64,000 nucleotides of DNA from Martelella lutilitoris (GTDB lineage: Bacteria > Pseudomonadota > Alphaproteobacteria > Rhizobiales > Rhizobiaceae). The notes under the pieces are model-generated. The model did no database searches. It saw nothing but the letters and a program-made list of their open reading frames with translations, and had not been told where the DNA came from. The position numbers and the translations under genes are program-made. Below are positions 35,367 through 52,111 of this stretch, in pieces. Where the stretch lies: the NCBI RefSeq assembly GCF_016598595.1, contig NZ_CP066786.1, forward strand, positions 3,309,501 to 3,373,500. Reading direction: 5' to 3'. Numbering within the stretch: position 1 is the first letter of the stretch; each line of letters opens with the position of its first letter.

Positions 35367-35381
35367 TTTCGCCTGCCGGAA
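35367..35381. promoter_or_regulatory. Operator candidate TTTCG-N5-CGGAA in the IclR/DUF6282 divergent promoter
   Basis: TTTCG CCTGC CGGAA sits 25 bp upstream of the IclR GTG and 75 bp upstream of the DUF6282-like gene. It keeps the 5-5-5 layout of the exact sites at 563, 44301 and 50996, with one mismatch in the right arm. The site at 52097 has the same right arm and nearly the same spacer. Confidence 0.5.
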
Positions 35382-35455
35382 CACATCGGGTTTGCAAGTT
35401 GAGGGCGCGCGTTGTCAAGCCCTATACCCGTCTTGTTCGAAGGAAGGAGAACTGC

Positions 35456-36394
35456 ATGGCAACGGCGAACAATCGCGCGGAGGCGCGCGCCCTGATCTCA
35501 ACGATCGACGACGCCGTCGTCGACGGACTGATGAAGGGAGCGGTCGATCTTCACGTTCATTCCGGACCGTCGACGATGGCCCGTCAGCTCGATCATTTCC
35601 AGGCGGTGGAACAGGCCGCCGCCGCCGGCATGCGCGGGATCATGTTCAAGGATCATCACTATTCCGTCGCGCCGTTCCTGCCGATCATGGAACGCGTGCT
35701 CGGCCATCTGGACGTGGCCATGTTCGGCGGGCTGGTTTTGAACAACACGACCGGCGGGCTCAATCCCTTCGTCGTCGATGCCCAGCTCAACCAGGGCGCC
35801 CGGCTGGTCTGGATGCCGACCGCGCAATCGGCCAATCACATCCGCAGCTCCCATCGCAAGACACGGCTTGCCTCCAATGTTCAGCTCAAGGCGTCCCCCG
35901 GCATCACCGTCGTCGACGCTTACGGCGAGATCCTCGACCCGGTAAAGGAGATCCTCGATTCGATCGCCGCCTTCGATGCCATCCTGTCCTCCGGCCACCT
36001 GCATGTCTGGGAAATCTGGAAGCTATTCAGGGAAGCGCGCAAGCGCGGCGTCAAGCGCCTTCTGGTCAATCACCCTATGTACGGGCTGCATTTCACCTAT
36101 GAGGACATCACCGAAATGGCCGAATTCGGCGCCGTGATAGAGCAATCGGCCTGCCTCTACGTGGATTCGCGCTTCAACGTATTTTCGCCGCAGGAGTTGA
36201 AAGAGCATGTTCTGGCCGCCGGCGTCGCGCATTCCTCGATCGGCTCCGATCTCGGTCAGGTCGACAATCCCTCGCCCGTGGAAGGGCTGCGCCAGGCGAT
36301 CAAGCTTCTGCTCGCCCTCGGCTTCACCGAGGAAGAGGTACGCCTGATGGTGCGCGACAATCCGGCGAAACTGGTCGGCCTCGACCCCGCCTGA
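35456..36394 (+). CDS. DUF6282-like metal-dependent hydrolase (PHP/amidohydrolase-like)
   Basis: The product is 312 residues from the ATG at 35456, after GGAAGGAG; the longer ORF upstream has no family-like sequence. It begins with the metal motif DLHVHSGPS (HxH), followed by MFKDHHYSV, a His in SSGHLHVWEI, LLVNHPMYGLHFTYEDI and SSIGSDLGQVDNPSPVEGL near the end. This order fits a TIM-barrel metal hydrolase of the group annotated DUF6282, for which I know no established reaction. It opens the plus-strand catabolic array, so a ring- or lactone-hydrolysing role is possible. Confidence 0.65.
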   Translation: MATANNRAEARALISTIDDAVVDGLMKGAVDLHVHSGPSTMARQLDHFQAVEQAAAAGMRGIMFKDHHYSVAPFLPIMERVLGHLDVAMFGGLVLNNTTGGLNPFVVDAQLNQGARLVWMPTAQSANHIRSSHRKTRLASNVQLKASPGITVVDAYGEILDPVKEILDSIAAFDAILSSGHLHVWEIWKLFREARKRGVKRLLVNHPMYGLHFTYEDITEMAEFGAVIEQSACLYVDSRFNVFSPQELKEHVLAAGVAHSSIGSDLGQVDNPSPVEGLRQAIKLLLALGFTEEEVRLMVRDNPAKLVGLDPA

Positions 36395-36437
36395 GAACGG
36401 CATAACCGACGGATGATCCGAACGATCACGCCATCCC

Positions 36438-36452
36438 TTTCGTGTCGCGGAC
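36438..36452. promoter_or_regulatory. Weak operator candidate TTTCG-N5-CGGAC before the FAH gene
   Basis: TTTCG TGTCG CGGAC lies 60-74 bp upstream of the FAH-family start, in a 117-bp gap. It matches the 5-5-5 layout with two deviations in the right arm. It is the weakest member of the set and is included because of its position. Confidence 0.3.
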
Positions 36453-36511
36453 GGGCGCCGGAACACGACTTTTGAAGAACCAGAAAGCCCGCGCACGCGA
36501 AGGAGACCGCC

Positions 36512-37498
36512 GTGAAACTTGCAACCATCAACCATCAGGGAAAGCCTGTTCTCGCCATCAGAAAGGGCGACGCGACCGTTCTTCTGGCGGAGCTTTACGA
36601 AAGCGCCGGGCTCGGATCGGCGCCCGCGGACTTGAACTGCTTCATCGAGGGCGGTGAAGCCGAAATCGCCCGGGCGCGCGAAGCGCTTGAGAAAGGCGAA
36701 GCGTCCCCGCTTGACGAGGCTTCGATCGACTGGCTGCCGCCGCAGCCCCGACCTTCCAAGATCCTCGGCGTCGCCTTCAACAATATGGGCATCCGCAAGT
36801 CCGCCCATCGCGATCCGGGCGTGCCGAATTTTTTCCTGAAGGCGCCGTCCTGCCTGACCGGCCACAACAAGCCGATCATCATGGAAGACTATTACGGCGA
36901 GACCATACCGGAACTGGAACTTGCCGCCGTCATCGGTAAACGCTGCAGCAGGATATCGGTCGAGGAGGCGAAGGACGCGATCTTCGGCTTCACCATCATC
37001 AACGACGTCACCTCCCACGGCATGAAGTTCGGCATGGATTCGATCGCGACGACACGCGAGCCCGATCTTCTGCGGCCGCATCACCTTGCCTGGCGCGACC
37101 GGCATGGCGAGGACGACCGCGATGTCTATTTCGTCTACCACACCCGCTCCAAGGCTTCCGACACATTCGGGCCGATGGGCCCCTTCATCACCACGGCCGA
37201 CGAAGTTGAAAACCCGGACGCGCTTGCGGTGAAGGGCTGGTTCGACGGAGAACCCTTCGCCGTCGACAGCACCGCGAGTTACCGCTTCAAGGTCGCCGAG
37301 GTCATCGCCGAAGCCAGCCGCTTCTTCACCCTGGAGCCCGGCGATGTCTTCTGCTTCGGCACCTCGGCGAAAGGTGTCGGCAATTTTCCGAATGGCCACC
37401 GCTCGGTAAACATGCACAAACTGGCCGGCACGATCGATATCGAGATCGAGGGGCTCGGCAGGTTGTCCAATCCGGTTGTCCATAACTGGAAAGACTGA
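36512..37498 (+). CDS. Fumarylacetoacetate hydrolase (FAH) family protein
   Basis: The product is 328 residues with a GTG start after AAGGAGA. The FAH C-terminal fold is recognisable: metal-binding acidic residues in PELELAAVIGKRC and a later Asp in TIINDVTSHGMKF, then MGPFITTADEVENPDALAVKGWFDGE and LEPGDVFCFGTSAKGVG. Family members hydrolyse C-C bonds of diketo acids or hydrate, decarboxylate or open 2-keto acids in aromatic meta-cleavage pathways. It lies between the DUF6282-like and quinone-oxidoreductase-like genes. The exact reaction is unknown. Confidence 0.87.
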   Translation: MKLATINHQGKPVLAIRKGDATVLLAELYESAGLGSAPADLNCFIEGGEAEIARAREALEKGEASPLDEASIDWLPPQPRPSKILGVAFNNMGIRKSAHRDPGVPNFFLKAPSCLTGHNKPIIMEDYYGETIPELELAAVIGKRCSRISVEEAKDAIFGFTIINDVTSHGMKFGMDSIATTREPDLLRPHHLAWRDRHGEDDRDVYFVYHTRSKASDTFGPMGPFITTADEVENPDALAVKGWFDGEPFAVDSTASYRFKVAEVIAEASRFFTLEPGDVFCFGTSAKGVGNFPNGHRSVNMHKLAGTIDIEIEGLGRLSNPVVHNWKD

Positions 37499-37552
37499 CG
37501 AGCGGAGGAGACAGGCGACGGCGTGATGGCCAAAAGGGGGGACGTGAGCGTA

Positions 37553-38587
37553 ATGCGGGTGGTGGAATTCAACGGCGCGGGGGGACCGGACGTGCTCGAC
37601 ATCGTCGAACGACCCCTCCCCGATCCCGGAGCGGGCGAAGTCCGGATCCGGGTTTACGCGGCGGGCGTCAACCGGCCGGATATCCAGCAAAGGCGTGGGC
37701 TCTATCCGCCGCCGCCGGACGCCTCCCCGATCCCCGGCCTTGATGTCTCGGGCATTGTCGACGCGGTTGGCCCGGACGTGGCCGGGCTCTCTCCCGGCGA
37801 TGCCGTCTGCGCGCTGACCAATGGCGGCGGCTACGCCGAATATTGCGTCGTGCCTGCGCTCCAGTGCATGCCGGTTCCGCGCGGGCTGAGCTTTGTCGAA
37901 GCCGCATCGCTGCCGGAAGTCTATTTTACCGCCTGGAACAACATCATCTGGCTTGGACGACTCGGCGAAGGCGAGAGCCTGCTTGTGCAGGGCGGCACCA
38001 GCGGCGTCGGCATGGCCGCGATCCAGATCGCTCGCAAATTGCGCAACGCCCATGTTTTCGCGACCGCCGGCACGGAGGAGAAATTGTCCGTCTGCCTTCA
38101 GACAGGCGCGCACCATGCCGTCAGCTACAAGGGTGCCTGGGACGCCGAACTGAGGGCGCTCACCGACGGGTTCGACGTGATCCTCGATGCGCAGGCCGGG
38201 CCGTACACGCAACGGCAGCTCGACCTTCTGAGGCCGGATGGACGGCTTGTCTTTATCGCCAGTCATCTCGGCGAGACGGCCGAGGTCAATATCCGCCAGA
38301 TCGTCCGGCGGAGACTGACGCTGACCGGCTCGACCCTTCGTCCGCGTCCGCCCGCCTACAAGGGCCGGATCGCCGCCGAACTGGTCCGCGATGTCTGGCC
38401 GCTTCTGGAAACGGGTGAAATGACGACCCGGATCCATCAGGTCTTCGCCTTCGCCGACGTCAGGTCCGCCCATCAGCTGATGGATGAAAACAGGCAGATC
38501 GGCAAAGTGGTTCTGGCCGTCAATGCCGAATGCGCCGAAACCATCGGGCGTGCCCGCAACAAGGAAAAAACTGATGCTGATCGTTGA
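37553..38587 (+). CDS. NADPH:quinone oxidoreductase / zinc-independent alcohol dehydrogenase family (PIG3-like)
   Basis: The product is 344 residues from the ATG at 37553 (AGGGGGGA about 10 nt upstream); GTG 37523, ATG 37526 and GTG 37544 are alternatives. The medium-chain reductase fold shows VYAAGVNRPDIQQRRGLYP, LDVSGIVDAVGPDV, and the nucleotide-binding LLVQGGTSGVGMAAIQIA. Zinc-ligand cysteines are absent, as in QOR/PIG3 enzymes. It probably reduces a C=C or quinone with NADPH. It overlaps the next gene by 14 nt. Confidence 0.87.
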   Translation: MRVVEFNGAGGPDVLDIVERPLPDPGAGEVRIRVYAAGVNRPDIQQRRGLYPPPPDASPIPGLDVSGIVDAVGPDVAGLSPGDAVCALTNGGGYAEYCVVPALQCMPVPRGLSFVEAASLPEVYFTAWNNIIWLGRLGEGESLLVQGGTSGVGMAAIQIARKLRNAHVFATAGTEEKLSVCLQTGAHHAVSYKGAWDAELRALTDGFDVILDAQAGPYTQRQLDLLRPDGRLVFIASHLGETAEVNIRQIVRRRLTLTGSTLRPRPPAYKGRIAAELVRDVWPLLETGEMTTRIHQVFAFADVRSAHQLMDENRQIGKVVLAVNAECAETIGRARNKEKTDADR

Positions 38588-39044
38588 CCACGCCCGTGAT
38601 CTCGCTGCCCATGAGGGACAATTGCTCGGCCGCTCGGCCTGGATGACCGTGACACAGGAGGCAATCGACGACTATGCCCGGCTGACGGGCGACGATCACT
38701 GGATCCATGTGGATGTGGAGCGTGCCGCGCGCGAGATGCCCGGCGGCAAGACCATTGCCCACGGTCTTTTCATCATCTCGCTACAGCCGGCGCTCCAGCG
38801 CGAGATCTACCAGATCAGGGCGCGCGGGCGCGGGCTGAACTACGGCTATGACCGGATGCGGTTCATCGCCCCCGTTCCGGTGGAAAGCCGTATCCGGCTC
38901 GCCCTCACGCTTGTCGCCGCCGAGCCGCATGCGCTGGGAACGCGGATCGTCAACGACGCCGTGATCGAGCTGGAGGGCTCCGAAAAGCCCGCCATCGCCA
39001 CCCGCCATATCGTACTCATCGAAAACGATCCGGGAGACAGTTGA
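38574..39044 (+). CDS. MaoC-like (R)-specific enoyl-CoA hydratase, copy 1
   Basis: The product is 156 residues from the ATG at 38574 inside the end of the previous gene. The hot-dog fold motif DYARLTGDDHWIHVDVERA holds the catalytic Asp/His pair, and GKTIAHGLFIISL follows. It would hydrate or dehydrate an acyl-CoA produced by the CoA ligase encoded next, with which it overlaps by ATGA. A second MaoC gene lies at 41464, so the pathway may include two hydration steps. Confidence 0.87.
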   Translation: MLIVDHARDLAAHEGQLLGRSAWMTVTQEAIDDYARLTGDDHWIHVDVERAAREMPGGKTIAHGLFIISLQPALQREIYQIRARGRGLNYGYDRMRFIAPVPVESRIRLALTLVAAEPHALGTRIVNDAVIELEGSEKPAIATRHIVLIENDPGDS

Positions 39045-40588
39045 TGAACGAGGCCAGCAAGCCGGCTGCGCACCAGGAAGGCGAACTCGTTGCCGCTATC
39101 CTGCGCCACGGTCTTGAGCAGCCGGAGGCGCCGGCGCTGACCTGCAACGGCGAAACGATGAGCCAGGCAGAACTCCGCAGCGCCGTGCTGGCCGTTGCGG
39201 GCGCGATCACCCAGCATTGCGACGGCGCGGTCGGGCGGATAGCGCTTCTGGGAACGGCCGGCCTGGGGCTGACGACAGCCTATCTCGGCATCATCGCGGC
39301 GGGCGGTACGGCCGTGCCCCTGCCCGCCTCGGCACACCGCGACGCGCTTGCCGGCATGCTGAAAGACTGCGACCCCGCGCTCATCTTCGTGCAGGATGGC
39401 TATGCAGATCTGTTGCCGGCGGAGATGACCGCGCGCATCATCCCGCTCGAGGCGACGCCGGCAGGCGGCGTGCCGCGCGATTTTCTCGCCGGAACGGAGC
39501 CGCTGACGGCCCCGGTGATCCCGGCGCCCGAGGCGCCGTTCAATATCATCTACTCCTCCGGCACCACCGGGAGGGCCAAGGGCATCGTTCACGCGCACGC
39601 GATGCGATACCGGCAGGCGGCGCGGACGCTTTTCGGGCTTGGCCCCGAAAGCACGATGCTTCTGGCGACGCCGCTTTATTCCAACACCACGCTGATGCCC
39701 ATGCTTTCGGCGCTGTTCCACGCAAGCCATGTCGTGCTGATGCCGAAATTCGACGCGGAAACCTATCTTGCGCTTGCCGAGCGATACGGCGCGACCCACA
39801 CCATGCTGGTGCCGGTCCAGTATCAGCGCATTCTGGCAGCGACGAGCTTCGGCAAGCGCGACCTGTCGTCCTTCAGGGTCAAGCAGTGCACCGGCGCGCC
39901 GCTTCCGGCTGCAGCAAAGCGCGCCATCACCGAACAATGGCCGGGCGATTTCTTCGAGGTCTACGGCCTGACGGAAGGCGGCTGCACCTGCATTCTCGAT
40001 GCCGCCCGCCACCCCGAAAAGGCGCATACCGTGGGCAAGCCGGCAGCGGGAAACATCATCCGCATCATCGATGACGACGGCAAGGACGTGCCGCCCGGCG
40101 GGCGCGGCGAGGTTGTCGGCCGTTCGGCGATGATGATGTCGGGCTATTTCCGCAATGAGGAGGCAAACCGCGCCTTCTACTGGCGCGACGCCGAGGACCG
40201 GCTTTTTCACCGCACCGGCGATATCGGCATGTTCGACGAGGACGGGTTCCTCGTCCTGCTGGATCGCAAGAAGGACATGATCATTTCCGGCGGCTTCAAT
40301 ATCTATGCCTCGGACCTAGAGGAAAAGCTGCTCGCCCATCCCGATGTCATAGAGGCCGCCGTGATCGCGGTCCCGAGCGAGAAATGGGGCGAGACGCCGC
40401 TCGGCTTCGTGGTCGCGAAACCGGGCGCGACGATCGAGCCGGAGGCGCTGCGCGACTGGGTCAATGACCGGCTGGGGCGCATGCAGAAGGTCTCGGCGGT
40501 AGAGCTCCGCGAAACGCTTCCGCGCAACAGCGGCGGTAAGGTGCTGAAGCAGGAACTGCGCAAGCCCTACTGGGATAAGACGCCATGA
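39041..40588 (+). CDS. AMP-dependent acyl-CoA synthetase (ANL superfamily)
   Basis: The product is 515 residues. ANL motifs are complete: IIYSSGTTGRAKGIVH, YGLTEGG, HRTGDIGMFDEDGF, GGFNIYASDLEEKL and the catalytic Lys in SGGKVLKQEL. It activates a carboxylic acid to its CoA thioester through an acyl-adenylate. Both ends overlap neighbours by ATGA, so it is tightly coupled with the MaoC and SDR genes. The acid is probably the compound imported by the TRAP or TTT system downstream; its identity is not readable from the sequence. Confidence 0.92.
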   Translation: MMNEASKPAAHQEGELVAAILRHGLEQPEAPALTCNGETMSQAELRSAVLAVAGAITQHCDGAVGRIALLGTAGLGLTTAYLGIIAAGGTAVPLPASAHRDALAGMLKDCDPALIFVQDGYADLLPAEMTARIIPLEATPAGGVPRDFLAGTEPLTAPVIPAPEAPFNIIYSSGTTGRAKGIVHAHAMRYRQAARTLFGLGPESTMLLATPLYSNTTLMPMLSALFHASHVVLMPKFDAETYLALAERYGATHTMLVPVQYQRILAATSFGKRDLSSFRVKQCTGAPLPAAAKRAITEQWPGDFFEVYGLTEGGCTCILDAARHPEKAHTVGKPAAGNIIRIIDDDGKDVPPGGRGEVVGRSAMMMSGYFRNEEANRAFYWRDAEDRLFHRTGDIGMFDEDGFLVLLDRKKDMIISGGFNIYASDLEEKLLAHPDVIEAAVIAVPSEKWGETPLGFVVAKPGATIEPEALRDWVNDRLGRMQKVSAVELRETLPRNSGGKVLKQELRKPYWDKTP

Positions 40589-41340
40589 GCGAACAGGCCC
40601 CTCCCTTGAGCGGACGCATCGCCGTGGTCACGGGTGCGACAAGCGGCATCGGTCGCGCCTCGGCGATCCGCCTCGCGGATCTCGGCGCCACCATCGTCGC
40701 CGGCTATCACAGCCGAAGCGCGGCTGCCGAAGACCTGGTCGCATCGCTTCCCGGCGAAAATCACATTGCGCTGCGGATCGCGCTCGAGACGAGCGATACC
40801 ATCGCCGAGGCCGCCCGGGCAGTCGAAAAGGCTTTCGGCCATGTCGATATACTGGTCAATAATGGCGGCGCGACCGAAGCCGTGCCGGCCAATGATCTTG
40901 ACGGCCTGACCGACGAGATGTTCGACAGGATCACGCGGATCAACCTGCGCGGCCCGTTTGCCGTCACCCGGGCTTTCAGGCCGCTTCTCGCGCGCGGGGA
41001 GGATGCCGTTGTGGTCAACATCTCTTCGATCGCCGCGCGCACCGGCGTCGGCTCCAATCTCGCCTATTGCGCGGCAAAGGCCGGGCTCGACGCATTGACG
41101 ATCGGGCTTGCGAAGGTGCTAGCGCCGGATATCCGGGTGTTTTCCGTATCACCCGCCGGCGTTGATACCGACTTCGTGCCGGGACGTCCGCGCGCGCGGC
41201 TGGAGGCGACGGCGAAGCAGACGCCGCTTGCCAAGATCACCAGCGCCGACGATGTGGCCCGCGCCGTCATCGCCTGCGTCACGCTCATGACCAGTTCGAC
41301 GGGCATCGTCATCCCGGTCGATGAAGGGCGGCACCTATAG
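40585..41340 (+). CDS. Short-chain dehydrogenase/reductase (3-oxoacyl reductase-like)
   Basis: The product is 251 residues. It has TGATSGIG for cofactor binding, the NNGG motif, Ser in NISSIAARTG and YCAAK as the catalytic Tyr/Lys. The sequence AGYHSRS after the second strand suggests NADP(H) preference. In context it may oxidise the hydroxyacyl-CoA made by a MaoC hydratase. Its TAG stop codon (41338-41340) is also the first three bases of a RIME-like repeat. Confidence 0.9.
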   Translation: MSEQAPPLSGRIAVVTGATSGIGRASAIRLADLGATIVAGYHSRSAAAEDLVASLPGENHIALRIALETSDTIAEAARAVEKAFGHVDILVNNGGATEAVPANDLDGLTDEMFDRITRINLRGPFAVTRAFRPLLARGEDAVVVNISSIAARTGVGSNLAYCAAKAGLDALTIGLAKVLAPDIRVFSVSPAGVDTDFVPGRPRARLEATAKQTPLAKITSADDVARAVIACVTLMTSSTGIVIPVDEGRHL

Positions 41341-41443
41341 AGCGCCGTGCGTCCATTCGGACGCACAAAGGACGCTCTAACTTATTGAATCTGAGCATCG
41401 TGCTTCCGAAAATCGATTCCGATTTTCGGGCCGATGCGCTAGG
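41338..41443 (+). repeat. RIME-like repeat, copy B
   Basis: About 106 bp, starting with the TAG stop codon of the SDR gene. The first palindrome is imperfect (GTGCGTCC-ATTC-GGACGCAC core, with AAAGGA inserted in the right arm). The second palindrome (CCGAAAATCG-ATTC-CGATTTTCGG) is intact, and the element ends GCGCTAGG. It lies between convergent SDR and MaoC genes. Confidence 0.85.
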
Positions 41444-41463
41444 GCCCTGCCCAGAAGCGTTCC

Positions 41464-41916
41464 CTATTCTGCCCGGGGCCTGCAGGGCACCTGTCCGAGC
41501 GCGATCATCGTCATCACGGCTTCGCCATCCTGATTGGTCACCGTCACCTCGGTCTTGATAACGCCGAATTCCGGTCGGCGCTGGTGCGGCTCTGTCGCAA
41601 TCACCTTGCGGGTCGTGGTCAGCCTGTCGCCCGGACGCACCGGACGCCGCCAGCGCAACTGCTCGATGCCGAGGCCGACCATAGGCGTTTCGCCATAGCC
41701 GCCCGCTTCCACGAAGAGCCGCATGGAAAGCGCCGCGACCTGCCATCCGCTGGCGATGAGGCCGCCGAAGCGCCCTTCCGCGGCCTTTTCGGGATCGACA
41801 TGCATGGGCTGCGGATCATACTCGCGGGCATAGCGGATAATCTCGTCCTCGGACAAGGTGATGGTTCTGCTTGTCCATGTCTCGCCAATGGCAAAGTCTT
41901 CGAAGTAACGGCGCAT
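41464..41916 (-). CDS. MaoC-like hydratase, copy 2
   Basis: The product is 150 residues from the ATG at 41916, with GGAGAAAA directly upstream; the ORF extends to 42060 but without a family match. The motif EIIRYAREYDPQPMHVDPEKA is the MaoC catalytic segment, and GLIASGWQVAALSMRLFVEAG follows. It is on the opposite strand to the catabolic array and divergent from the aldehyde dehydrogenase gene, sharing a promoter region with a TTTCG-type palindrome. Confidence 0.88.
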   Translation of the reverse strand: MRRYFEDFAIGETWTSRTITLSEDEIIRYAREYDPQPMHVDPEKAAEGRFGGLIASGWQVAALSMRLFVEAGGYGETPMVGLGIEQLRWRRPVRPGDRLTTTRKVIATEPHQRRPEFGVIKTEVTVTNQDGEAVMTMIALGQVPCRPRAE

Positions 41917-41988
41917 TTTTCTCCGGTCTCCCAATATGCTCTTCGGTGGTTCTAGCGCCGGCGCGGCCTTTCGGCAAAAGGACGACGG

Positions 41989-42003
41989 TTTCGTTCCGCG
42001 AGA
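41989..42003. promoter_or_regulatory. Operator candidate TTTCG-N5-CGAGA between maoC and aldehyde dehydrogenase genes
   Basis: TTTCG TTCCG CGAGA in the 168-bp divergent region. It is nested in a longer perfect inverted repeat, GTTTCGT (41988-41994) and ACGAAAC (42003-42009), with an 8-nt spacer. Either arrangement could serve an IclR dimer or tetramer. Confidence 0.5.
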
Positions 42004-42084
42004 CGAAACGGCTGCGCGACCCCATTGCGGCGCGTCAGCCGCCGGATAGAGTTCCAGCACTTACCGGAGGAGGGAAGCGGCAGG

Positions 42085-43512
42085 ATGAATGCTCTGGATT
42101 TTCTGATCGACGGATGCTGGCGGCGACCGGCGCGCGCAAGGTCCATACCGATTATCAACCCGGCCAACGAACAGGAGATCGGCGTTGTCAGCCTTGGCAG
42201 CGCCGAGGATGTCGACATGGCGGTCGAAGCCGCACGCCGCGCCTTTGCCGTCTGGTCGCAGAGCGAACGCGAGGAACGCCTTTTCATTCTCGGGCGTATC
42301 ATCGAGGGCTTCCGGGCGCGCCTGCCCGAGCTTGCACGGCTGATGACCATGGAAATGGGCGTGCCGATAACCTTCTCGATCGAACGTCAGGCCACGGTCG
42401 CGCTCTTCCACTTCGAGGAGGTTATCCGGGTGCTGGCGGATTACCGCTTCGAGCGCCGAGAAGAGACCGGCATCCTCCGCAGGGAACCGATCGGCGTCTG
42501 CGGTCTGATCACGCCCTGGAACTGGCCGCTCAATCAGATCGCCTCCAAGGTCGCCCCGGCAATTGCGACCGGCTGCACCATGGTGCTGAAGCCCAGCGAG
42601 ATCGCCCCGCTCAGCGCCACGGCGCTTGCCGAAATCATCGATGACGCCGGACTGCCCGCCGGCGTCTTCAATCTCGTCCACGGCGACGGACCGACCGTCG
42701 GAGAGGCAATCGCCCGCCACCCGGATGTCGACATGGTCTCGATCACCGGCTCGACCAATGCCGGCATCCGCGTCGCCGAGCTGGCCGCGAAAACGATCAA
42801 GCGCGTCGCGCAGGAGCTTGGCGGCAAATCGGCCAACATCATCCTGCCCGACGCCGATCTTCCGGCGGCGGTGAAGGCCGGCGTTCATGCCTGCAACACC
42901 AATGGCGGCCAGAACTGCCAGTCGCCGACCCGCATGCTGGTGCCGCGCCGGCATCGCGACGAGGCCATCGAAGCCGCCTGCGAGGCGATCTCAGAGATCA
43001 GGCTCGGCGATCCGATGGCCCCCGAAACGACGATGGGCCCGCTCGTGAGCCAGACCCAGTTCGACAAGGTTCAGGCGCTGATCGCCTCCGGCATTAAGGA
43101 AGGCGCGACGCTCGTCGCCGGCGGCCCCGGCCGTCCGGCCGAATGCAATGCCGGCTATTTCGTCCGGCCGACCGTGTTCGCCGATGTCACGCCTTCAATG
43201 CGCATCGCGCGCGAGGAAATCTTCGGGCCTGTGCTTTCGATGATGTTTTATGACAGCGAGGACGAAGCCGTCGAGATTGCCAATGACACGCCTTTCGGCC
43301 TTGCCGGTTTCGTCCAATCGAAAGACCTTGACCATGCGCGTGTGGTTGCCAATCAAATCCGCGCCGGCCGCGTCTATCTCAACGGCGCGCCGTTTGACCG
43401 CAGCCTGCCGTTCGGCGGATATAAACAGTCGGGCAATGGCCGCGAGTTCGGTCTGTTCGGTTTCGAGGAATATCTGGAGGTCAAGGCGATCCTTGGCTAT
43501 CCGGCCGCCTGA
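42085..43512 (+). CDS. NAD(P)-dependent aldehyde dehydrogenase
   Basis: The product is 475 residues from the ATG at 42085; GGAGGAGGGA lies upstream. ALDH hallmarks: ITPWNWPLNQIASKVAPAIATG (cofactor binding), FTGS-equivalent SITGSTNAG, general-base Glu in RVAQELGGKSANI, catalytic Cys in NGGQNCQSPTR, and EEIFGPVLSMM. It oxidises an aldehyde to an acid. It is followed 35 bp later by the SnoaL-like gene and is likely part of the same degradation pathway. Confidence 0.93.
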   Translation: MNALDFLIDGCWRRPARARSIPIINPANEQEIGVVSLGSAEDVDMAVEAARRAFAVWSQSEREERLFILGRIIEGFRARLPELARLMTMEMGVPITFSIERQATVALFHFEEVIRVLADYRFERREETGILRREPIGVCGLITPWNWPLNQIASKVAPAIATGCTMVLKPSEIAPLSATALAEIIDDAGLPAGVFNLVHGDGPTVGEAIARHPDVDMVSITGSTNAGIRVAELAAKTIKRVAQELGGKSANIILPDADLPAAVKAGVHACNTNGGQNCQSPTRMLVPRRHRDEAIEAACEAISEIRLGDPMAPETTMGPLVSQTQFDKVQALIASGIKEGATLVAGGPGRPAECNAGYFVRPTVFADVTPSMRIAREEIFGPVLSMMFYDSEDEAVEIANDTPFGLAGFVQSKDLDHARVVANQIRAGRVYLNGAPFDRSLPFGGYKQSGNGREFGLFGFEEYLEVKAILGYPAA

Positions 43513-43547
43513 GGGGTCGGCCATTCACAATGCGAGGGAGGGGATCC

Positions 43548-44171: not shown

Positions 44172-44274
44172 AGCGCTGCGCGTCCATTCGGACGCACAAA
44201 AGACGTTCTAACCTATTGAATCTACGCATCTTGCTTTCCGATAATCGATTCCGATTTTCGGGCCGATGCTCTAG
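44169..44274 (+). repeat. RIME-like repeat, copy C
   Basis: About 106 bp, starting with the stop codon of the SnoaL-like gene. Small changes relative to the other copies include CTGCGCG for CCGTGCG in the left arm and CCGATAATCG in the second palindrome. It lies between two plus-strand genes, 257 bp before the TAXI binding-protein start, so here it separates rather than terminates convergent units. Confidence 0.85.
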
Positions 44275-44300
44275 CGCAATCCGTGCGCCAGGCAGGAGCA

Positions 44301-44531: not shown

Positions 44532-45674
44532 ATGAGAAAACTAGCAAGCCTGGCGCTTGGCGTCATCTGCCTTTTCGCAGGCGGGGCGATGGCGCAGGAC
44601 GACACCGTCACCCTGCCGAAGACGCTGGTGTGGACGAGCTTCGACACCGGCAGCCTCGGCTATAACCAGTCTATAGCCGTCGGCAAGGCGCTTGAAGATG
44701 CCTACGGCATCTCGCTTCGCGTTCTGCCGGCGAGCACGGACCTTTCGCGCATCGCGCCTGCCCGGGAAGGCCGCGTACCCTTCGCGCTGGCCGGAAGCGA
44801 CGCCTTTTATGCCTTCGAAGGCGTGCTGAGCTACGCAACGCCCGATCTCGGACCGCAGAAGCTGACGGCCGTGATCCTCGCCGGCGCGGACAACGGCGTC
44901 GCCATGGGCGTCGCCGCCAATCAGGATATCAACAGCATCGCGGACCTGAAGGGCAAGAAGATCGGATGGGTCGTCAGTTCGCCGTCGCTGCAGTCCAATG
45001 TCCGGGCGTTCCTCGCCTTCGGCGGGCTCACTGTCGATGATGTCGAACTTGTCGAGCAGCCGAGCTATGGCGGCGCATGGCAGGCCTTTACCAACGGCCA
45101 GATCGACGCGATGACGGCCGTTACCAGCGGCAGCGGCGTTCTCGAGCAGGCGGCGGCCTCGCCGCAGGGCCTCAAATGGCTGCCAATGCCCTTCTCAGAT
45201 ACCGAAGGCTGGAACCGCCTTCAGGCCGTCAACCCGCATTTCGGCCAGCGCAAGGCGACCGTCGGCGTCGACATCGATGCGGAGCACCCGCTGGAATGCG
45301 CCGGCGTTCCCTATCCGGCGCTGATCACCTACACGGCCTCGCCGGACCTCGTCTACAATGTCACCAAGGCGATCGACCTGCAGGCGCCGGTCTACAGCAA
45401 GATGCAATCCGGCACGTCCGGGTGGGCGGCCGATTCGGAAGTGTTCGACTGGGTCGTGCCGTTCAACGAGGCCGCTGTCAGATATTACAGGGAAGCCGGC
45501 GTCTGGACCGACGAGGACCAGAAGCACAATGACAATCTTGTCGCCCGCGCGAAGGTCCTGCAGGAGGCCTGGAGCAAGATGAATGGCGAGAGCGGCGACG
45601 ATTTCAGCGAAAAGTGGATGAAAGTGCGTGCCGATACGCTCGAAGCGGCCGGTTTTCCGGCCTATTTCAGGTAG
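44532..45674 (+). CDS. TAXI family TRAP transporter solute-binding protein
   Basis: The product is 380 residues from the ATG at 44532 (GGAGGAGG upstream). A Sec signal ends GGAMAQDD. The TAXI fold shows TLVWTSFDTGSLGYNQSIAVGKAL, the DLKGKKIGWVVSSPS lobe hinge and QAFTNGQIDAMTAVTSGS. It captures a periplasmic acid and hands it to the fused permease encoded 6 bp downstream. It resembles longer TAXI proteins of marine and rhizobial bacteria. The ligand is unknown. Confidence 0.88.
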   Translation: MRKLASLALGVICLFAGGAMAQDDTVTLPKTLVWTSFDTGSLGYNQSIAVGKALEDAYGISLRVLPASTDLSRIAPAREGRVPFALAGSDAFYAFEGVLSYATPDLGPQKLTAVILAGADNGVAMGVAANQDINSIADLKGKKIGWVVSSPSLQSNVRAFLAFGGLTVDDVELVEQPSYGGAWQAFTNGQIDAMTAVTSGSGVLEQAAASPQGLKWLPMPFSDTEGWNRLQAVNPHFGQRKATVGVDIDAEHPLECAGVPYPALITYTASPDLVYNVTKAIDLQAPVYSKMQSGTSGWAADSEVFDWVVPFNEAAVRYYREAGVWTDEDQKHNDNLVARAKVLQEAWSKMNGESGDDFSEKWMKVRADTLEAAGFPAYFR

Positions 45675-45680
45675 TCGCGC

Positions 45681-47672
45681 ATGCCGGTCATAGACAACAA
45701 CACGCAGGGAGGCGAGGCGGTTTCAGCCCGCCGCCGCGCCTCATTGACATCGGCCGTCGTGCGCGTCCTGACGGTCCTGCTTCTGCTCCTGGGCATAAAC
45801 CAGACCTTCAACCTCGGGTCGCGCTTTCATATGACCCTGCTGGAGAACCAGTATTTCTACGCGGTGCTGGCGCTCGCGATCCCGATGGTTTTTCTTCTGT
45901 TACCCGGTTTTCGCTCCCCTCGCCCGCAGACGCCGGGCGTGCTCGACTGGGCGCTTGCGGCCATCACATTCGTGACGCTCTGCTATTTCATTTTCCATGC
46001 CTACGACATCGTGCTCCTCGGCTGGGAAATGTCGCCGCCATCCGCCGCCGTCTTTGCCAGCGCGGCTCTCTGGCTGGTCATGCTGGACGCGGGCCGTCGG
46101 GCGGGCGGGCTGATCCTCGGCATGATCGTCCTTTTCTTCTCGACCTATCCGCTGTTTGCCGACAAGCTGCCGGGACCGATCTCGGCCTTCAGTTCCCCGT
46201 TCAGATATGTGGCGGCCTATCACGCGATGAGCCTTGAAAGCATTCTCGGCATCCCGCTGAAGGCCTTCGCGAACCTCGTCTTCGGCTTCGTCGTCTTCGG
46301 CGCGGCGCTTGAACATACCGGCGCCGGGCGTTTCTTCATCAACCTCGCCTTCGCGCTTCTCGGGCATGTGCGCGGCGGTCCGGCCAAGGTTGCAATCCTT
46401 TCCAGCGGCCTGATGGGGTCGCTGAGCGGCAGCGTGGTCACCAATGTGCTGACGACCGGCGTGATGACCATTCCGGCCATGCGCAAGGTCGGCATGAAGG
46501 ACACGGTCGCCGCGGGCATCGAGACCTGTGCCTCGACCGGCGGCGTGCTGATGCCCCCGGTGATGGGCGCGGCCGCCTTCGTCATGGCGGATTTTCTGCA
46601 GGTGCCCTATGCGACGATCGCCCTTGCCGCCGCCATTCCCGCCGCGCTCTATTTCTTCGGCCTTTTCATCCAGATCGACGCGCGCGCCGCGCGCGAGGGT
46701 CTGAGCGGGCTTTCCGCCGAAGAACTGCCGGACCTGAAACAGACGCTCAAGGAAGGCTGGCACCATGTCTTCGCCTTCGCGCTGCTGACGGTCATGCTGC
46801 TCGTTCTGAAAAACGAACAATACGCGCCGTTCTATGCGACGGCGGCGCTTCTGGCCGTGAACCAGATCGTCTCCAGGTCCGATCGCTGGGGACGCAAGGA
46901 ACTGCTGCATTTCATCGACAGCCTCGGGCGTCTCTTCGCCACGCTCGCAGCAACGCTTGCCGCCGTCGGCATGATCGTCGGCGGGTTGTCGATGACCGGG
47001 CTTGCCGGAACGCTCGTCAACGACCTTCTGAGCATTGCCGGCGATTCGCCCCTGCTTCTGCTCATCATGGGCGCGCTGACCAGCCTTGTCCTCGGCACGG
47101 GCATGACAGCGACGGCCTGTTACATCTTTCTGGCCGTGATGCTGGCCCCGGCGCTCATCCAGGTCGGGTTCGACCCGATGGCCTCGCATCTTTTCATCTT
47201 CTACTGGGGCATGCTGTCCTTCATCACGCCGCCGGTGGCGCTCGGCGCCTTCGCCGCCGCCTCGGTTGCCAAGACCCCGCCGATGCGCACCGGTTTCGAA
47301 GCGATGAAGATCGGCAGCATCGTCTATTTCATCCCGTTCTTCTTCGTGTTCGATCCGGCGCTGATCGGGCACGCGGGCTGGCAGAGCATCCTTCTCTCCT
47401 CGGGCCTTGCCCTTTTCGGCGTGTGGATGTTCGCAAGCGGCGTCCAGGGCTACATCATGGGCATCGGTCCGGTCTTTTCCGACCGTCCCTATGTCTGGGT
47501 GCTGCGGCTTCCGCTGCTTGTCGGCGCGGTGCTGATCGCGCTTCCGGGCGAAGCCGTTCCGGGGTTCGGCGATCTGGAGCTTCTGGCTGCCGGGCTGGCG
47601 ATCATGGCGCCGGTCATCATCGCCGCCTTCATCCTCAACCGGCGCGGTCTCGGAAGGGTCCGGCCGGCCTGA
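45681..47672 (+). CDS. TRAP transporter fused permease (DctQ-DctM fusion)
   Basis: The product is 663 residues, the normal size for the TAXI-type fused permease. The first about 170 residues hold four helices equivalent to the small DctQ subunit; the rest is a DctM-like domain with LMGSLSGSVVTNVLTTGVMTIPAM, CASTGGVLMPPVMGAAAFVMAD and FITPPVALGAFAAASVA. It moves the TAXI-bound solute inward using an ion gradient. It is followed by a gap containing a strong hairpin and then the convergent tctA gene. Confidence 0.92.
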   Translation: MPVIDNNTQGGEAVSARRRASLTSAVVRVLTVLLLLLGINQTFNLGSRFHMTLLENQYFYAVLALAIPMVFLLLPGFRSPRPQTPGVLDWALAAITFVTLCYFIFHAYDIVLLGWEMSPPSAAVFASAALWLVMLDAGRRAGGLILGMIVLFFSTYPLFADKLPGPISAFSSPFRYVAAYHAMSLESILGIPLKAFANLVFGFVVFGAALEHTGAGRFFINLAFALLGHVRGGPAKVAILSSGLMGSLSGSVVTNVLTTGVMTIPAMRKVGMKDTVAAGIETCASTGGVLMPPVMGAAAFVMADFLQVPYATIALAAAIPAALYFFGLFIQIDARAAREGLSGLSAEELPDLKQTLKEGWHHVFAFALLTVMLLVLKNEQYAPFYATAALLAVNQIVSRSDRWGRKELLHFIDSLGRLFATLAATLAAVGMIVGGLSMTGLAGTLVNDLLSIAGDSPLLLLIMGALTSLVLGTGMTATACYIFLAVMLAPALIQVGFDPMASHLFIFYWGMLSFITPPVALGAFAAASVAKTPPMRTGFEAMKIGSIVYFIPFFFVFDPALIGHAGWQSILLSSGLALFGVWMFASGVQGYIMGIGPVFSDRPYVWVLRLPLLVGAVLIALPGEAVPGFGDLELLAAGLAIMAPVIIAAFILNRRGLGRVRPA

Positions 47673-47856: not shown

Positions 47857-47886
47857 CGAAACGTCCTTGAGCGAGGATCGGAGCGC

Positions 47887-49407
47887 TCAGTCCTCCACCG
47901 GCTCGGGATCCTTGTTCTTCCGCTTTCTCGGACCGAGAAAGACGATAGAGACGACCGACAGCGCCAGAAGGACGAGCGCGATCGGATGCTGCAGCACGAT
48001 CCAGGGATCGCCCCGGCTGATCAGGATCGACTGGACCAGTTTCGATTCCAGCTCCGGCGTCAGCACATAGCCGATGATGAAGGCGACCACGGAAAAGCCG
48101 AACTGCTGCATGAAATAGCCCATCACGCCGAAGGCCAGCATGATGTAGATGCCGAACATGCCGCCCGTGGTGACGTAGGCGCCGGTGGTGCAGAGCAGCA
48201 GGGCCGTCGGATAGACCACGGAGTTGGGCGCCGCGATCGCCAGCGACCAGATGCGCATGCCGATCTGGCCGACGCCGAGATTGCAGAAATTGGCAATCAG
48301 CATGGCGCCGAAGAGCCCGTAGATCAACCTTCCCTGCTCCTCGAACAGAAGCGGACCGGGCTGCACGCCGTGGATGATGAAGGCGCTGACAAGGAGGGCG
48401 GCGGCGATATTGCCGGGAATGCCGAGCGTCAGCAGCGGAATGAGATTGGCGCCGACGACCGCCGAATTGGCCGCCTCCGAAGCCGCGATGCCGCGCGGGT
48501 CACCCTTGCCGAAACTCTCCGGATCCTTCGCCTGCTGCTTGGTGACCGAGTAGGACAGAAAGCCGGCCGTTGCAGAGCCGAGCCCCGGAATGGCGCCAAT
48601 GACCGTGCCGATCGCCCAGGCGCGGATCGCCACATATTTGTTGGCCAGAAGCTCGCTCAGCGTCACGCCCTTGTCTTCCGGATTGTCCGAGCGTACGCGG
48701 ATCGGCGAGGCGGTGCGCGTGGCGCGCGTGGTGGCTGCGATCTGGCGGAAGATTTCCGAAACGGCGAGAAGCCCGATCGACATCGCCGTCAGCGGCAGGC
48801 CGTCATAGAGATCGAGCATGCCGAAGGTGAAGCGCGGTGTGCCCATGGCCGGATCAATGCCGACCGAGGCGAACAGAAAACCGAGCGCCGCCGCCATCAG
48901 CCCCTTGGTCATCGAAGTGCCGACCAGGCCCGTGATGACCGTGAAGGCGAGGATCATCAGTGCGGTGATCTCGATCGGCCCCATGCGCAGCGCCACAAGG
49001 GCGAGCGGCGCCGAGATCGTGATCAGCACGATGTCGCTCGAAAGATCGCCGAAGACGGAATAGTAGAGCGCGTATTTCATCGCCTTCATCGGCTTGCCCT
49101 TTTTGGCCATGGGGTGGCCGTCAAGCGCGGTCGCCGCTGACTCGGGCGTGCCGGGCGTGTTGATCAGGATCGCCGGGATGGCGCCACCCACCGTTCCGCC
49201 CTTGTTGACGCTGATCAGAAAGGCAAGCGCCGTGAGCGTATCGAGCGTGTAGGTCAGCGGAATGGCAATCGCCAGCGCCATCAGCAGCGTCATGCCGGGA
49301 ATTGCCCCGACGATCTGGCCGACGGCCACGCCGAGGATGATGTAGAGCAGGTTGGTGAGGGTCAGGGCGTCGGTCAGCCCGCCGATAATCGTGGTCAAGT
49401 CAGGCAT
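47887..49407 (-). CDS. tctA: Tripartite tricarboxylate transporter large permease TctA
   Basis: The product is 506 residues, as expected for TctA. Early segments LYIILGVAVGQIVGAIPGMTLLMALAIAIPLTY and GGTVGGAIPAILINTPGTPESAATALDG are the family signature. There are about 12 membrane helices and a basic C-terminal tail. With TctB it imports the carboxylate bound by TctC. It is the last gene of the tctCBA set, 10 bp after tctB. Confidence 0.93.
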   Translation of the reverse strand: MPDLTTIIGGLTDALTLTNLLYIILGVAVGQIVGAIPGMTLLMALAIAIPLTYTLDTLTALAFLISVNKGGTVGGAIPAILINTPGTPESAATALDGHPMAKKGKPMKAMKYALYYSVFGDLSSDIVLITISAPLALVALRMGPIEITALMILAFTVITGLVGTSMTKGLMAAALGFLFASVGIDPAMGTPRFTFGMLDLYDGLPLTAMSIGLLAVSEIFRQIAATTRATRTASPIRVRSDNPEDKGVTLSELLANKYVAIRAWAIGTVIGAIPGLGSATAGFLSYSVTKQQAKDPESFGKGDPRGIAASEAANSAVVGANLIPLLTLGIPGNIAAALLVSAFIIHGVQPGPLLFEEQGRLIYGLFGAMLIANFCNLGVGQIGMRIWSLAIAAPNSVVYPTALLLCTTGAYVTTGGMFGIYIMLAFGVMGYFMQQFGFSVVAFIIGYVLTPELESKLVQSILISRGDPWIVLQHPIALVLLALSVVSIVFLGPRKRKNKDPEPVED

Positions 49408-49417
49408 AGCATTGCTT

Positions 49418-49846
49418 TCAGAAGGGCAGCGATGGCAATGGACGACCCATCACGATCACGAAAACGAACCACGTTCCTGCCGGAACCAGCACAATTGTCG
49501 TGGCCAGCCACATATACCGGCGCTCGAACATGAAGGCGCATACGGCCGCCATCAGCGCAATTGCCGACGGGAGAAAACCCGCAAGCGGCATGACGAAGGC
49601 GGCCGCGAGCACCAGGGCCGCGAGAGCCGCGAGACGCGCGAACTCATACCAGCTGAAATTTGTCGGCTGCGCCCTGGCGAGAAGCTGGACAAGGCCGAGA
49701 AAAATGAACAGCCATGCCGCAATCTTCGGAAACAGCGAGGGATCAATCGGCCCCGGCTGGCTCGTGACCTGCAACGGAATCAGGAAAAAAAGGAGGAAGC
49801 CGCCGAAAACGATGCTGGCTCCCCCGATCAGGCGTTCAAAATACAT
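49418..49846 (-). CDS. tctB: Tripartite tricarboxylate transporter small permease TctB
   Basis: The product is 142 residues with about four membrane helices (LIGGASIVFGGFLLFFLIPL, FPKIAAWLFIFLGLVQLL). The size and the N-terminal pattern fit TctB. It is separated from tctC by an 80-bp gap holding a shortened RIME-like element (copy D) and sits 10 bp before tctA. Confidence 0.85.
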   Translation of the reverse strand: MYFERLIGGASIVFGGFLLFFLIPLQVTSQPGPIDPSLFPKIAAWLFIFLGLVQLLARAQPTNFSWYEFARLAALAALVLAAAFVMPLAGFLPSAIALMAAVCAFMFERRYMWLATTIVLVPAGTWFVFVIVMGRPLPSLPF

Positions 49847-49865
49847 TGAACAGCGTCCCTTTTTG

Positions 49866-49925
49866 CTAGCGCATCAATAGGTTAGAGCATCCTTTGTGCG
49901 GCCGAATGGACGCACGGCGCTCCAG
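49866..49925 (-). repeat. RIME-like repeat, copy D, lacking the second palindrome
   Basis: Read on the minus strand it runs TGGAGCGCCGTGCGTCC, an ATTC loop, the right arm with AAAGGA, then CTCTAACCTATTGATGCGCT and AG. The part equivalent to the second palindrome is missing; the ends TATTGA and TGCGCTAG are joined directly. It begins 2 bp after the tctC stop codon, inside the tctCBA operon, where it may cause partial termination or stabilise tctC mRNA. Confidence 0.75.
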
Positions 49926-49926
49926 G

Positions 49927-50883
49927 TTACTTGCCGAGATACGCCTTGTAGAACTGGGCGCTTTTCGCGATCTTGTCAGTAGTTCCCTTGGGACCCAGGT
50001 TCAGCGGCTCGTTCTCGAGACGCGTCATCAGTTCGCCGTAGCCATCGGAATTGACGGCCTCGTCCAGCGCTTCTTCCAGGCAGGTCTTGATCGCCGGATC
50101 AACGCCCTTGGGCACCATGAAGATCGTCTGTCCCTCGATCGTCGCGTCAAGCCCGCCCTCGATCAGGGTCGGGGAGTCCGGTGCATAGGGCGTGCGGGCA
50201 TCGGTCAGCGACGCGAGTTGGTTCATCGCCCCGGCCTTTATCTGCTGGACATGCTGGGTGCCCTGGGTGGTGGCGTCCACATGGCCGCCAAGCGCGGACT
50301 GCAGCGCATCCGCCGCACCCTTGCTCGGAACCGCGATCAGGTTGACGTCGTAATGCTTGGCCAGCTGGTCGACCAGGATTTCCTGGCTCTTGCCGCCGAC
50401 GGAAATCGTCGCGCCGTTATTGTCTTTTGCGAAGGCGATGAATTCGTCCAGCGTCTGGTAGGGGCGGTCGACGAGCGAGACCAGACCGTAATTGATCTGC
50501 ATCGCCGTGCCCAGATAGTCGAAACTTTCGTAGGTATAGGGTGTGTCCGAATTCTCGTAAGGGTTGAGCGCCACCGTGCCCGTGGCCGCCACGCCGACGG
50601 AATAGCCGTCGGGCTTCATGTTCATGAGCGTCGCCGACATCACGCCGCCGCCGGCGCCCGGCTTGTTGTCGACAATAACGGTCCAGCCCTGCTGCGCCTC
50701 CAGCTCGGCAGCGATGGAGCGGGCAATCGCATCCGAGCCGCCGCCCGCGCCGTAGCCGACGAGCATCTGGATCGGCTTTGCGGGATAGCCGTCCGGGCAG
50801 TTCGCGGCGAAGGCGGCGAATGGCGATACCGCTACCGACAGCCCCAGGGCGGTCGTTCCAAGAATGATATCTGCTGTTTTCAT
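49927..50883 (-). CDS. tctC: Tripartite tricarboxylate transporter substrate-binding protein TctC (Bug family)
   Basis: The product is 318 residues from the ATG at 50883, which has GGAGGAAAAC directly upstream; the longer ORF to 51018 is not supported. A Sec signal ends FAAFAANC. The Bug-family start YPAKPIQMLVGYGAGGGSDAIARSIA and the GKPGAG-like DNKPGAGGGVM motif are clear. It binds a carboxylate in the periplasm. A perfect TTTCG-N5-CGAAA palindrome lies 113-127 bp upstream. Confidence 0.93.
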   Translation of the reverse strand: MKTADIILGTTALGLSVAVSPFAAFAANCPDGYPAKPIQMLVGYGAGGGSDAIARSIAAELEAQQGWTVIVDNKPGAGGGVMSATLMNMKPDGYSVGVAATGTVALNPYENSDTPYTYESFDYLGTAMQINYGLVSLVDRPYQTLDEFIAFAKDNNGATISVGGKSQEILVDQLAKHYDVNLIAVPSKGAADALQSALGGHVDATTQGTQHVQQIKAGAMNQLASLTDARTPYAPDSPTLIEGGLDATIEGQTIFMVPKGVDPAIKTCLEEALDEAVNSDGYGELMTRLENEPLNLGPKGTTDKIAKSAQFYKAYLGK

Positions 50884-50995
50884 GTTTTCCTCCAAAACAC
50901 GCGAACCGTACCGTCTCCCTCGTGGCGGTTCGCTCTTCTCCCGATAGCCTTGCCTAGCAACCGCGACCTGAGATGGAAACGGCGCGCGGAGTCCG

Positions 50996-51010
50996 TTTCG
51001 CCTGACGAAA
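50996..51010. promoter_or_regulatory. Palindromic operator candidate TTTCG-N5-CGAAA upstream of tctC
   Basis: An exact 5-5-5 palindrome (TTTCG CCTGA CGAAA) in the 131-bp gap between the alpha/beta hydrolase stop and tctC. It shares both arms with the sites at 563 and 44301, linking the TTT transporter to the IclR-controlled island. Confidence 0.55.
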
Positions 51011-51014
51011 TACC

Positions 51015-52016
51015 TCACCGCGCCAGAAATGCCTCCATTTCCGCAAGCATAGCATCGCGCCCGTGCTCGGGCCGGTCGAAAAGGATGTAATGCGTGGTGC
51101 CGCCCGGCTCCCAGTAAAACACCTCCCCGGCATTGATCAGGTCGCCGACGAGGGCATCCATATCGTCCTTCTGGCTGAGCGTATCGAATTCCGGCCGGAC
51201 GATCATGACCCGCGCATAGACCTGGTTAGCGTTGACGAGCCTATGGCCAATGCCCATCAGGAAAAGGTCCTCGAGCATGCCGTTGGGGCTGCGATAGGTT
51301 GGGGGATCGCGGTCCCTCGCCGTCGGATCGCCGTCGATCAGGGCCTGTTCGAAGGCCCTGACGATCGCCGGATCGCGCCAGGCGGCTTTGTCCTCGATCG
51401 GGATCTGCCGGTCCCAGTCGCGGGTCAGCATGTCGACCGCGTTGAAGGTGTAGTTGCCGAAATGCGGCCGGTTGAAATGGCCCGGTCGCGCCGGATCCTC
51501 CCATTGCGAGCCGTGGCAGAATTTCGGATGCCCGCCGGCGGCGCCGTAGACCATGTTGTAGAGAACGAGGTGGCTCGCCTTTTCCGGCCACAGAGCGGCA
51601 AAGGCCATGACGCAGGTGCCGCCGACGCCCCAGCCGAACAGGCCGACCGAGGAAAAGCCCGATACCGCGCAAAGGTGGTCGACCGCCGCCTCCAGATCGC
51701 GGACGATCTCGAGCGTGCGCACAAGCGGCTTCGTCGGCGTCGGCGGCAGGTCCATCTCCGCCGGACGCTCGGACCGGCCGAAGCCGCGCGCATCGACGAT
51801 GTAGCAGCGATGGCCGCGCGCGGCGAGATCGGCGGCAAGCGAACCGTGCGGGACATCGAGATCATATTCAGAAAGCCCGGGAATGCGGGTCCCGTGCATC
51901 AGGATCATCGGGCGCGCCGGCGTGCCTGCTGCCGCATCGAACACCTCTCGGATCGCAATGCGCACGCCATCGCGCGTCTTCAGAAAAAAATCCCTGCGCC
52001 TGATCGTCCCGGACAT
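51015..52016 (-). CDS. Alpha/beta hydrolase-fold protein lacking the nucleophile serine
   Basis: The product is 333 residues from the ATG at 52016, with AAGGAGAGG upstream; the longer ORF start is not supported. The fold is clear (PMILMHGTRIPGLSEYDLDVP oxyanion region, CYIVDARGFGRSERP, and a late His in GGTTHYIL or EHGRD). At the nucleophile elbow the sequence is LFGWGVGGTC, with Gly where the usual G-x-S-x-G has Ser; the codon is GGC, one base from the Ser codon AGC. It may be inactive, use another nucleophile, or act in binding. It lies between the lacI-type gene and tctC. Confidence 0.85.
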   Translation of the reverse strand: MSGTIRRRDFFLKTRDGVRIAIREVFDAAAGTPARPMILMHGTRIPGLSEYDLDVPHGSLAADLAARGHRCYIVDARGFGRSERPAEMDLPPTPTKPLVRTLEIVRDLEAAVDHLCAVSGFSSVGLFGWGVGGTCVMAFAALWPEKASHLVLYNMVYGAAGGHPKFCHGSQWEDPARPGHFNRPHFGNYTFNAVDMLTRDWDRQIPIEDKAAWRDPAIVRAFEQALIDGDPTARDRDPPTYRSPNGMLEDLFLMGIGHRLVNANQVYARVMIVRPEFDTLSQKDDMDALVGDLINAGEVFYWEPGGTTHYILFDRPEHGRDAMLAEMEAFLAR

Positions 52017-52096
52017 GCCTTTTCCTCTCCTTGAAATGCGGGTGCGACCCTGTCTAGCGGGCGCGGAGCCTGCTCCGCACCTTTCAAGACACGGCG

Positions 52097-52111
52097 TTTC
52101 GCCAGCCGGAA
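52097..52111. promoter_or_regulatory. Operator candidate TTTCG-N5-CGGAA upstream of the alpha/beta hydrolase gene
   Basis: TTTCG CCAGC CGGAA in the 120-bp gap after the LacI gene, 81-95 bp upstream of the hydrolase start. It is nearly identical to the site at 35367 (TTTCG CCTGC CGGAA), including the spacer. Confidence 0.5.

Follow-up and report, generated by a model that had tools for sequence, protein, structure and literature searches.

Genes and proposed operators of the island

The window analyzed here, that is, the whole 64-kb stretch at positions 3309501-3373500 of contig NZ_CP066786.1, belongs to the 4.79-Mb genome of Martelella lutilitoris and contains, between 35367 and 52111, an island of catabolic and transport genes in which a 17-bp palindrome recurs upstream of the genes. 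Near-identical loci are found, among the named relatives, in Martelella lutilitoris, M. radicis and M. mediterranea. The genes of the island, with the models that identify them, are the following:

34560-35342, minus strand: IclR-family regulator, proposed to bind the operators (Pfam IclR_C, PF01614, 41.1 bits against a cut-off of 24, and HTH_IclR, PF09339, 39.9 bits against a cut-off of 22)
35456-36394, plus strand: DUF6282 protein, which opens the core operon (Pfam PF19799)
36512-41340, plus strand: FAH-family protein, zinc-type quinone oxidoreductase (QOR), MaoC, AMP-dependent CoA ligase and SDR (Pfam)
41464-41916, minus strand: MaoC2 (Pfam PF01575)
42085-44171, plus strand: aldehyde dehydrogenase (ALDH) and SnoaL-like protein (Pfam PF00171, PF13577)
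44532-47672, plus strand: TAXI-type solute-binding protein and fused TRAP permease (TIGR02122 and TIGR02123, above cut-off)
47887-50883, minus strand: tctC-tctB-tctA tripartite tricarboxylate transporter (Pfam PF03401, PF07331, PF01970)
51015-52016, minus strand: alpha/beta hydrolase (ABH; Pfam PF00561)

The FAH relatives with solved structures include a 4-hydroxyphenylacetate-pathway isomerase/decarboxylase and a maleylpyruvate hydrolase. A sequence search with DUF6282 returned no relative with a solved structure, and a literature search found no mention of DUF6282 and none pairing IclR with Martelella.

A preliminary description of this DNA had pointed to six intergenic strings resembling TTTCG-N5-CGAAA, at 35367, 36438, 41989, 44301, 50996 and 52097, two of them exact, and had proposed that they form a single IclR regulon. 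All six strings are indeed present, those at 44301 and 50996 are exact, and the others carry one mismatch (35367, 41989, 52097) or two (36438). By our gene calls all six are intergenic as well; here and in the coding and noncoding counts below, genes were called with a simple codon-usage program, which had 18 genes of the island as its training set and puts some genes in the wrong place. The strings were scored with a symmetrical matrix made from 16 distinct non-Martelella sites, 15 from iclR/DUF6282 promoters and one (locus L047) from an iclR/QOR promoter, and in the scan of the window the five highest scores corresponded to five candidate operators, listed here with their conservation in relative loci (numbered with L) and Martelella genomes (numbered with G):

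35366-35382, no strand: operator 1 (site 35367), ATTTCGCCTGCCGGAAC, iclR/DUF6282 intergenic region; score 20.3; palindrome in 25 of 29 IclR upstream regions
41993-42009, no strand: operator 2 (site 41994), GTTCCGCGAGACGAAAC, MaoC2/ALDH intergenic region; score 20.3; aligned with L012-L014
44300-44316, no strand: operator 3 (site 44301), ATTTCGTCAAGCGAAAC, upstream of TAXI-TRAP; score 21.7; kept in L012-L014 and in the relocated block of G001, G006 and G007
50995-51011, no strand: operator 4 (site 50996), GTTTCGCCTGACGAAAT, upstream of tctCBA; score 23.1, the best of the window; kept in L012-L014, G001, G006 and G007
52096-52112, no strand: operator 5 (site 52097), GTTTCGCCAGCCGGAAA, upstream of the ABH gene, the weakest; score 16.6; kept in L014, G001, G006 and G007 (L012 stops short of the ABH gene and L013 reaches no further than this gene, so L014 is the only one of the three that covers the site)

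The next ranks were taken by 563 (14.5), 61367 (13.5) and 3473 (13.1). The strings at 563 and 61367 are further exact copies, absent from the preliminary description, and both lie outside the island and score below the five operators. The first of them, TTTCGGTATGCGAAA at 563-577 (also at 8858 of L116), is upstream of a second IclR gene (637-1596) and is identical in G002, where the second IclR protein is 96% identical; perhaps it is this protein's own operator, of the same motif class.

The six-site proposal thus stands in part: five operators would serve six target promoters plus iclR itself, and two of the positions had to be revised. At the ALDH/MaoC2 promoters the register had been placed five bases off, as 41994-42008 scores 20.3 versus 12.5 for 41989; the two palindromes overlap, and 41994 is the conserved register because the left arm of 41989 has disappeared in L013 and L014. 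The string at 36438, which had been taken for an operator before the FAH gene, has a matrix score of 3.4, falls outside the degenerate pattern TTYCGN5CGRAA and was rejected. An RNA hairpin at this place was unsupported, folds of four stretches giving z-scores of -0.13 to -0.02. The DUF6282-FAH block 36438-36464 is conserved in the window, L012, L013 and L014, which represent closely related Martelella genomes, and reads differently in L015-L017. There is no supported operator inside 36512-41340, and the FAH-to-SDR genes are probably transcribed by read-through from the DUF6282 promoter.

Clustering and conservation of the palindrome

The pattern TTYCGN5CGRAA occurs 49 times in the genome and its reversed control 53 times, so most of the matches are due to chance. 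Five of the 49, however, lie in 35367-52111, which is 0.35% of the genome (0.17 expected, binomial P 9e-7), and each of these five is intergenic and upstream of a gene, whereas outside the window 35 of 42 matches are coding and seven noncoding, five of the latter being in promoter position (Fisher P 5e-4). Such strings are therefore not equally frequent elsewhere. The longer form RTTYCGN5CGRAAY gave eight matches in the genome (control 6), four in the island (P 1e-8) and the other four coding. Exact TTTCG-N5-CGAAA was found 12 times in the genome (reversed control 6), two of them in the island (P 8e-4), and the same string with one mismatch 285 times (control 196). With a six-base spacer, used as a control, 15 matches were found in the genome and none in the window.

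Between the transcription units there is also an intergenic repeat in three copies, one of them inverted, at 41338-41445, 44169-44277 and 49874-49927, which measure 49 to about 108 nt and are 87-94% alike. The presence of these copies between the island genes could be taken to mean that the palindromes are common intergenic words, arising by chance or from a repeat family, and so could the lack of enrichment in the window of TTTCG-N5-CGAAA with up to two mismatches (42 observed, 35.1 expected, with 14 of 100 shuffles reaching 42). Nevertheless, none of the repeats overlaps an operator, the stricter patterns cluster with the P values of 9e-7 and 1e-8 given above, and the motif is conserved across genera and also in relocated blocks (see below), which contradicts chance, and we find this explanation hardly credible.

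For the conservation analysis, the IclR upstream region of the window was aligned with those of 28 relative loci, leaving out duplicates (L037-L039, L041 and short copies), L036, L048, L049, L060 and L061. The palindrome, as TTYC(G/A)-N5-CGRA(A/T), is present in 25 of these 29 regions. Over 24 loci, matrix matches of at least 16 numbered 61 in noncoding DNA (82 kb), a figure that includes the training sites of the matrix, versus three in coding DNA (396 kb), and column-permuted matrices gave a mean of 0.84 noncoding matches (one run of 100 reached 33). One of the three coding matches (L059) is a mis-call, lying in an aligned IclR upstream region, and the other two, both in L058 and within a 680-codon call at a place where the sites of L056 fall between genes, may be mis-calls as well. 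Furthermore, 36 of the 59 matches of at least 16 in the 23 other loci are away from the IclR promoter and spread over 17 of these loci, where they precede MaoC2, ALDH, SnoaL- or TctC-type, TAXI and other genes. Orthologous promoters have thus kept the sites, even with transporters distantly related to those of the window (25-29% identity for TctC, 46-49% for TAXI). The genes for IclR, DUF6282 (at least 90% identity) and SnoaL co-occur in the same seven of 13 Martelella genomes.

Two loci carry paired operators in one promoter region, L044 at 2012 and 2051 (39 bp apart) and L056 at 5233 and 5259 (26 bp apart), possibly serving higher-order binding. In addition, G006 has a paralogous cluster (L061) with an IclR protein of 38% identity, three DUF6282 genes (39-43%), TAXI, TRAP and ABH. 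The palindrome in its promoters, TTTCATAGTGTGAAA and TTTCACAATGTGAAA, is related to that of the island but has an A in place of the G in the arm.

Relocated blocks and promoter geometry

In three Martelella genomes the island is broken up. The system of G006 is split in three: its core operon lies at 0.69 Mb, a second part with TAXI-TRAP at 0.88 Mb and a third, made up of SnoaL/ALDH/MaoC2/ABH/tctCBA, at 1.02 Mb. The relocated blocks carry sites before TAXI (score 20.0), ALDH/MaoC2 (21.0), ABH (16.9) and tctC (23.1). Among the 10 of the 15 pattern matches of this genome that were listed, four are at promoters of the system and six are coding. In G007 and G001, TAXI-TRAP and the genes from ALDH to tctA form one second block, about 224 kb from the core in G007 and on another contig in G001, which keeps all four sites: TAXI (22.4 in G007 and 21.0 in G001), ALDH/MaoC2 (23.4 and 21.0), ABH (16.6 and 16.9) and tctC (22.7 and 23.1). 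Each relocated block of the three genomes retains its operators, at a separation of about 180-330 kb or on another contig.

These blocks also bear on which protein uses the sites. A different regulator could be a paralogous IclR, as there are further IclR genes in the genome, including the one at 637-1596 with the similar palindrome at 563, or the LacI-type protein encoded at 52137-53111, whose gene adjoins the island. However, the palindrome accompanies this iclR gene in 25 of 29 regions, and the nine genes flanking the relocated G006 blocks that were scanned include no ordinary transcription regulator; one of them encodes an Ada-like methyltransferase with an AraC-type domain. Among the compared loci LacI was found just in L043 (54% identity), which counts little as most loci end before or near that place. 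On balance, the use of the sites by another regulator seems very unlikely, and we infer that they are bound by the IclR protein of 34560-35342.

The operators hold an almost constant position relative to the predicted promoters. The following promoter elements are predicted in the window:

35399-35427, plus strand: DUF6282 promoter, TTGAGG (35399-35404), 17 bp and CTATAC (35422-35427), from the spacing of TTGW and YTA
35413-35418, minus strand: putative iclR -35 element (TTGACA) with a weak -10, from the conservation of GTCAA
41949-41977, minus strand: MaoC2 promoter, TTGCCG and TAGAAC; TA at +47 from the operator centre
42025-42052, plus strand: ALDH promoter, TTGCGG and TAGAGT; TA at +46; conserved in L012-L014
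44332-44360, plus strand: TAXI promoter, TTTATG and TAGTTT; TA at +47
50951-50979, minus strand: tctC promoter, TTTCCA and TAGGCA; TA at +47; conserved in L012-L014
52051-52056, minus strand: ABH promoter, -10 element (TAGACA); TA at +48

Counting from the operator centre, TA is found at +46 to +49 in all six target promoters of the window. Of the 25 motif-bearing iclR upstream regions, 21 have TTGW at +24/25, 22 have GTCAA at +38 to +40 and 19 have YTA at +46 to +48. One survey behind the TA positions listed above used 23 of the 27 sequences in the list of the matrix scan. YTA was at +45 to +48 in 11 of 17 DUF6282 promoters and in none of 14 in the iclR direction. Of 43 non-redundant directions at other promoters, 20 have YTA there, and every other 4-base bin holds four at most.

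Relative to the predicted start points of the targets, the operator centre is thus near -60 and lies upstream of -35 elements that do not conform to TTGACA, an arrangement expected for an activator. Facing iclR, the operator follows the predicted start point, which would suit self-repression. The same regulon and operators would also suit an IclR protein that represses its targets until an inducer from the pathway relieves the repression, as the family includes many repressors, together with activators and dual regulators (PMC8222616), and the site facing iclR is positioned for repression. At the six target promoters, however, the site lies upstream of the -35 element, with its centre near -60 from predicted start points, and overlaps no promoter, and so repression of the targets appears unlikely to us.

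Several observations weigh against a single IclR regulon that acts mostly by activation. The motif is absent from the four most distant IclR upstream regions (IclR 45-48% identity), and six of the 23 other loci have no second site, three of them being the broken-up Martelella islands. The transcription start points are predicted ones, and the expected YTA is missing in six of the 25 iclR/DUF6282-type regions and in 23 of the 43 directions taken from other promoters (some of these probably point the wrong way). Outside the window, matrix scores reach 18.6 in coding DNA (L094) and 16.9 (L082), 16.3 (L095, where the caller placed no gene) and 16.0 (L070) in noncoding DNA, so that operator 5, with 16.6, is not distinctive genome-wide by its score alone. 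Finally, genome-wide motif counts are 8 to 15 in Martelella genomes with the IclR and 6 to 15 in those without it, and these totals fail to separate the two groups because chance matches dominate them. Taking all this together, we give a probability of roughly three in four to the proposal that the IclR-type regulator binds the palindrome and controls the island as one regulon, mostly by activation; the earlier idea of one regulon that spans the transporters and the CoA-ligase pathway is in this respect supported by the sequences.

The regulator and its possible pathway

In the proposed mechanism, the IclR protein would bind the 17-bp palindrome RTTYCG-N5-CGRAAY as an oligomer and, once loaded with its effector, would most likely recruit RNA polymerase at sigma70-type promoters of six targets (DUF6282-FAH-QOR-MaoC-CoA ligase-SDR, ALDH-SnoaL, MaoC2, TAXI-TRAP, tctCBA and ABH). 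It would probably also limit its own synthesis, as the operator lies past the predicted iclR start point, and the effector is probably an imported carboxylate or an intermediate of the pathway.

This kind of regulator has known counterparts. The nearest NCBIfam models of the IclR protein are of the PRK09834 type, which we take to be MhpR of E. coli, and with the MhpR-type equivalog NF007342 it scores 249.7, just below the cut-off of 251. MhpR activates from an operator centred near -58. We also take COG2030, COG3181 and COG3333 to be MaoC, TctC and TctA, respectively. These three groups have been tied to aromatic metabolism in IclR regulogs (PMC8222616), which is consistent with a CoA-ligase pathway whose substrate is brought in by carboxylate transporters. 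The MhpR operator, GGTGCACCTGGTGCACA (PMC8222616), differs from those described here. According to the part of the same source on group 1 IclR motifs, published as GKTYCRYW3-4RYGRAMC, these are likewise 17-bp palindromes with arms GTTYCR...YGRAAC near catabolic and transport genes (PMC8222616). The arms GKTYCR and YGRAMC are recognized here in that four of the five operators fit RTTYCGN5CGRAAY, 52097 differing at the last base, and the A for G at the first base of some operator arms corresponds to the WTT subgroup of group 1 (PMC8222616). In contrast, the A/T centre (W3) is not kept, the operator centres being CTG, CAA, CTG, GAG and CAG. PcaU, PcaR and PobR are also IclR-type regulators of aromatic acid catabolism with CG-containing palindromes (PMC8222616), and with their model, TIGR02431, the protein reaches 92.6 bits versus a cut-off of 284.75. 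To judge from these comparisons, the regulon is new and the type of regulation is already known.

A motif noticed by eye becomes in this way a testable regulon with five defined operators, in which DUF6282, a family of unknown function, and two carboxylate transporters are linked to one regulator. The three broken-up islands can be regarded as natural experiments, in which the operators indicate which distant genes belong together, and the most interesting aspect for us is the near-fixed spacing between operator and promoter and the survival of that spacing in these islands. More tentatively, and with somewhat less than even confidence, we suggest that the operator marks an undescribed CoA-dependent carboxylate pathway around DUF6282 in several alphaproteobacterial genera, whose enzymes and exchangeable transporters would be united by a single activator module of almost rigid geometry (TTG at +24/25 from the operator centre, a TA-type -10 at +46 to +49) instead of by gene order. 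If this were true, scans for the module would reveal further members of the pathway anywhere in the genome.

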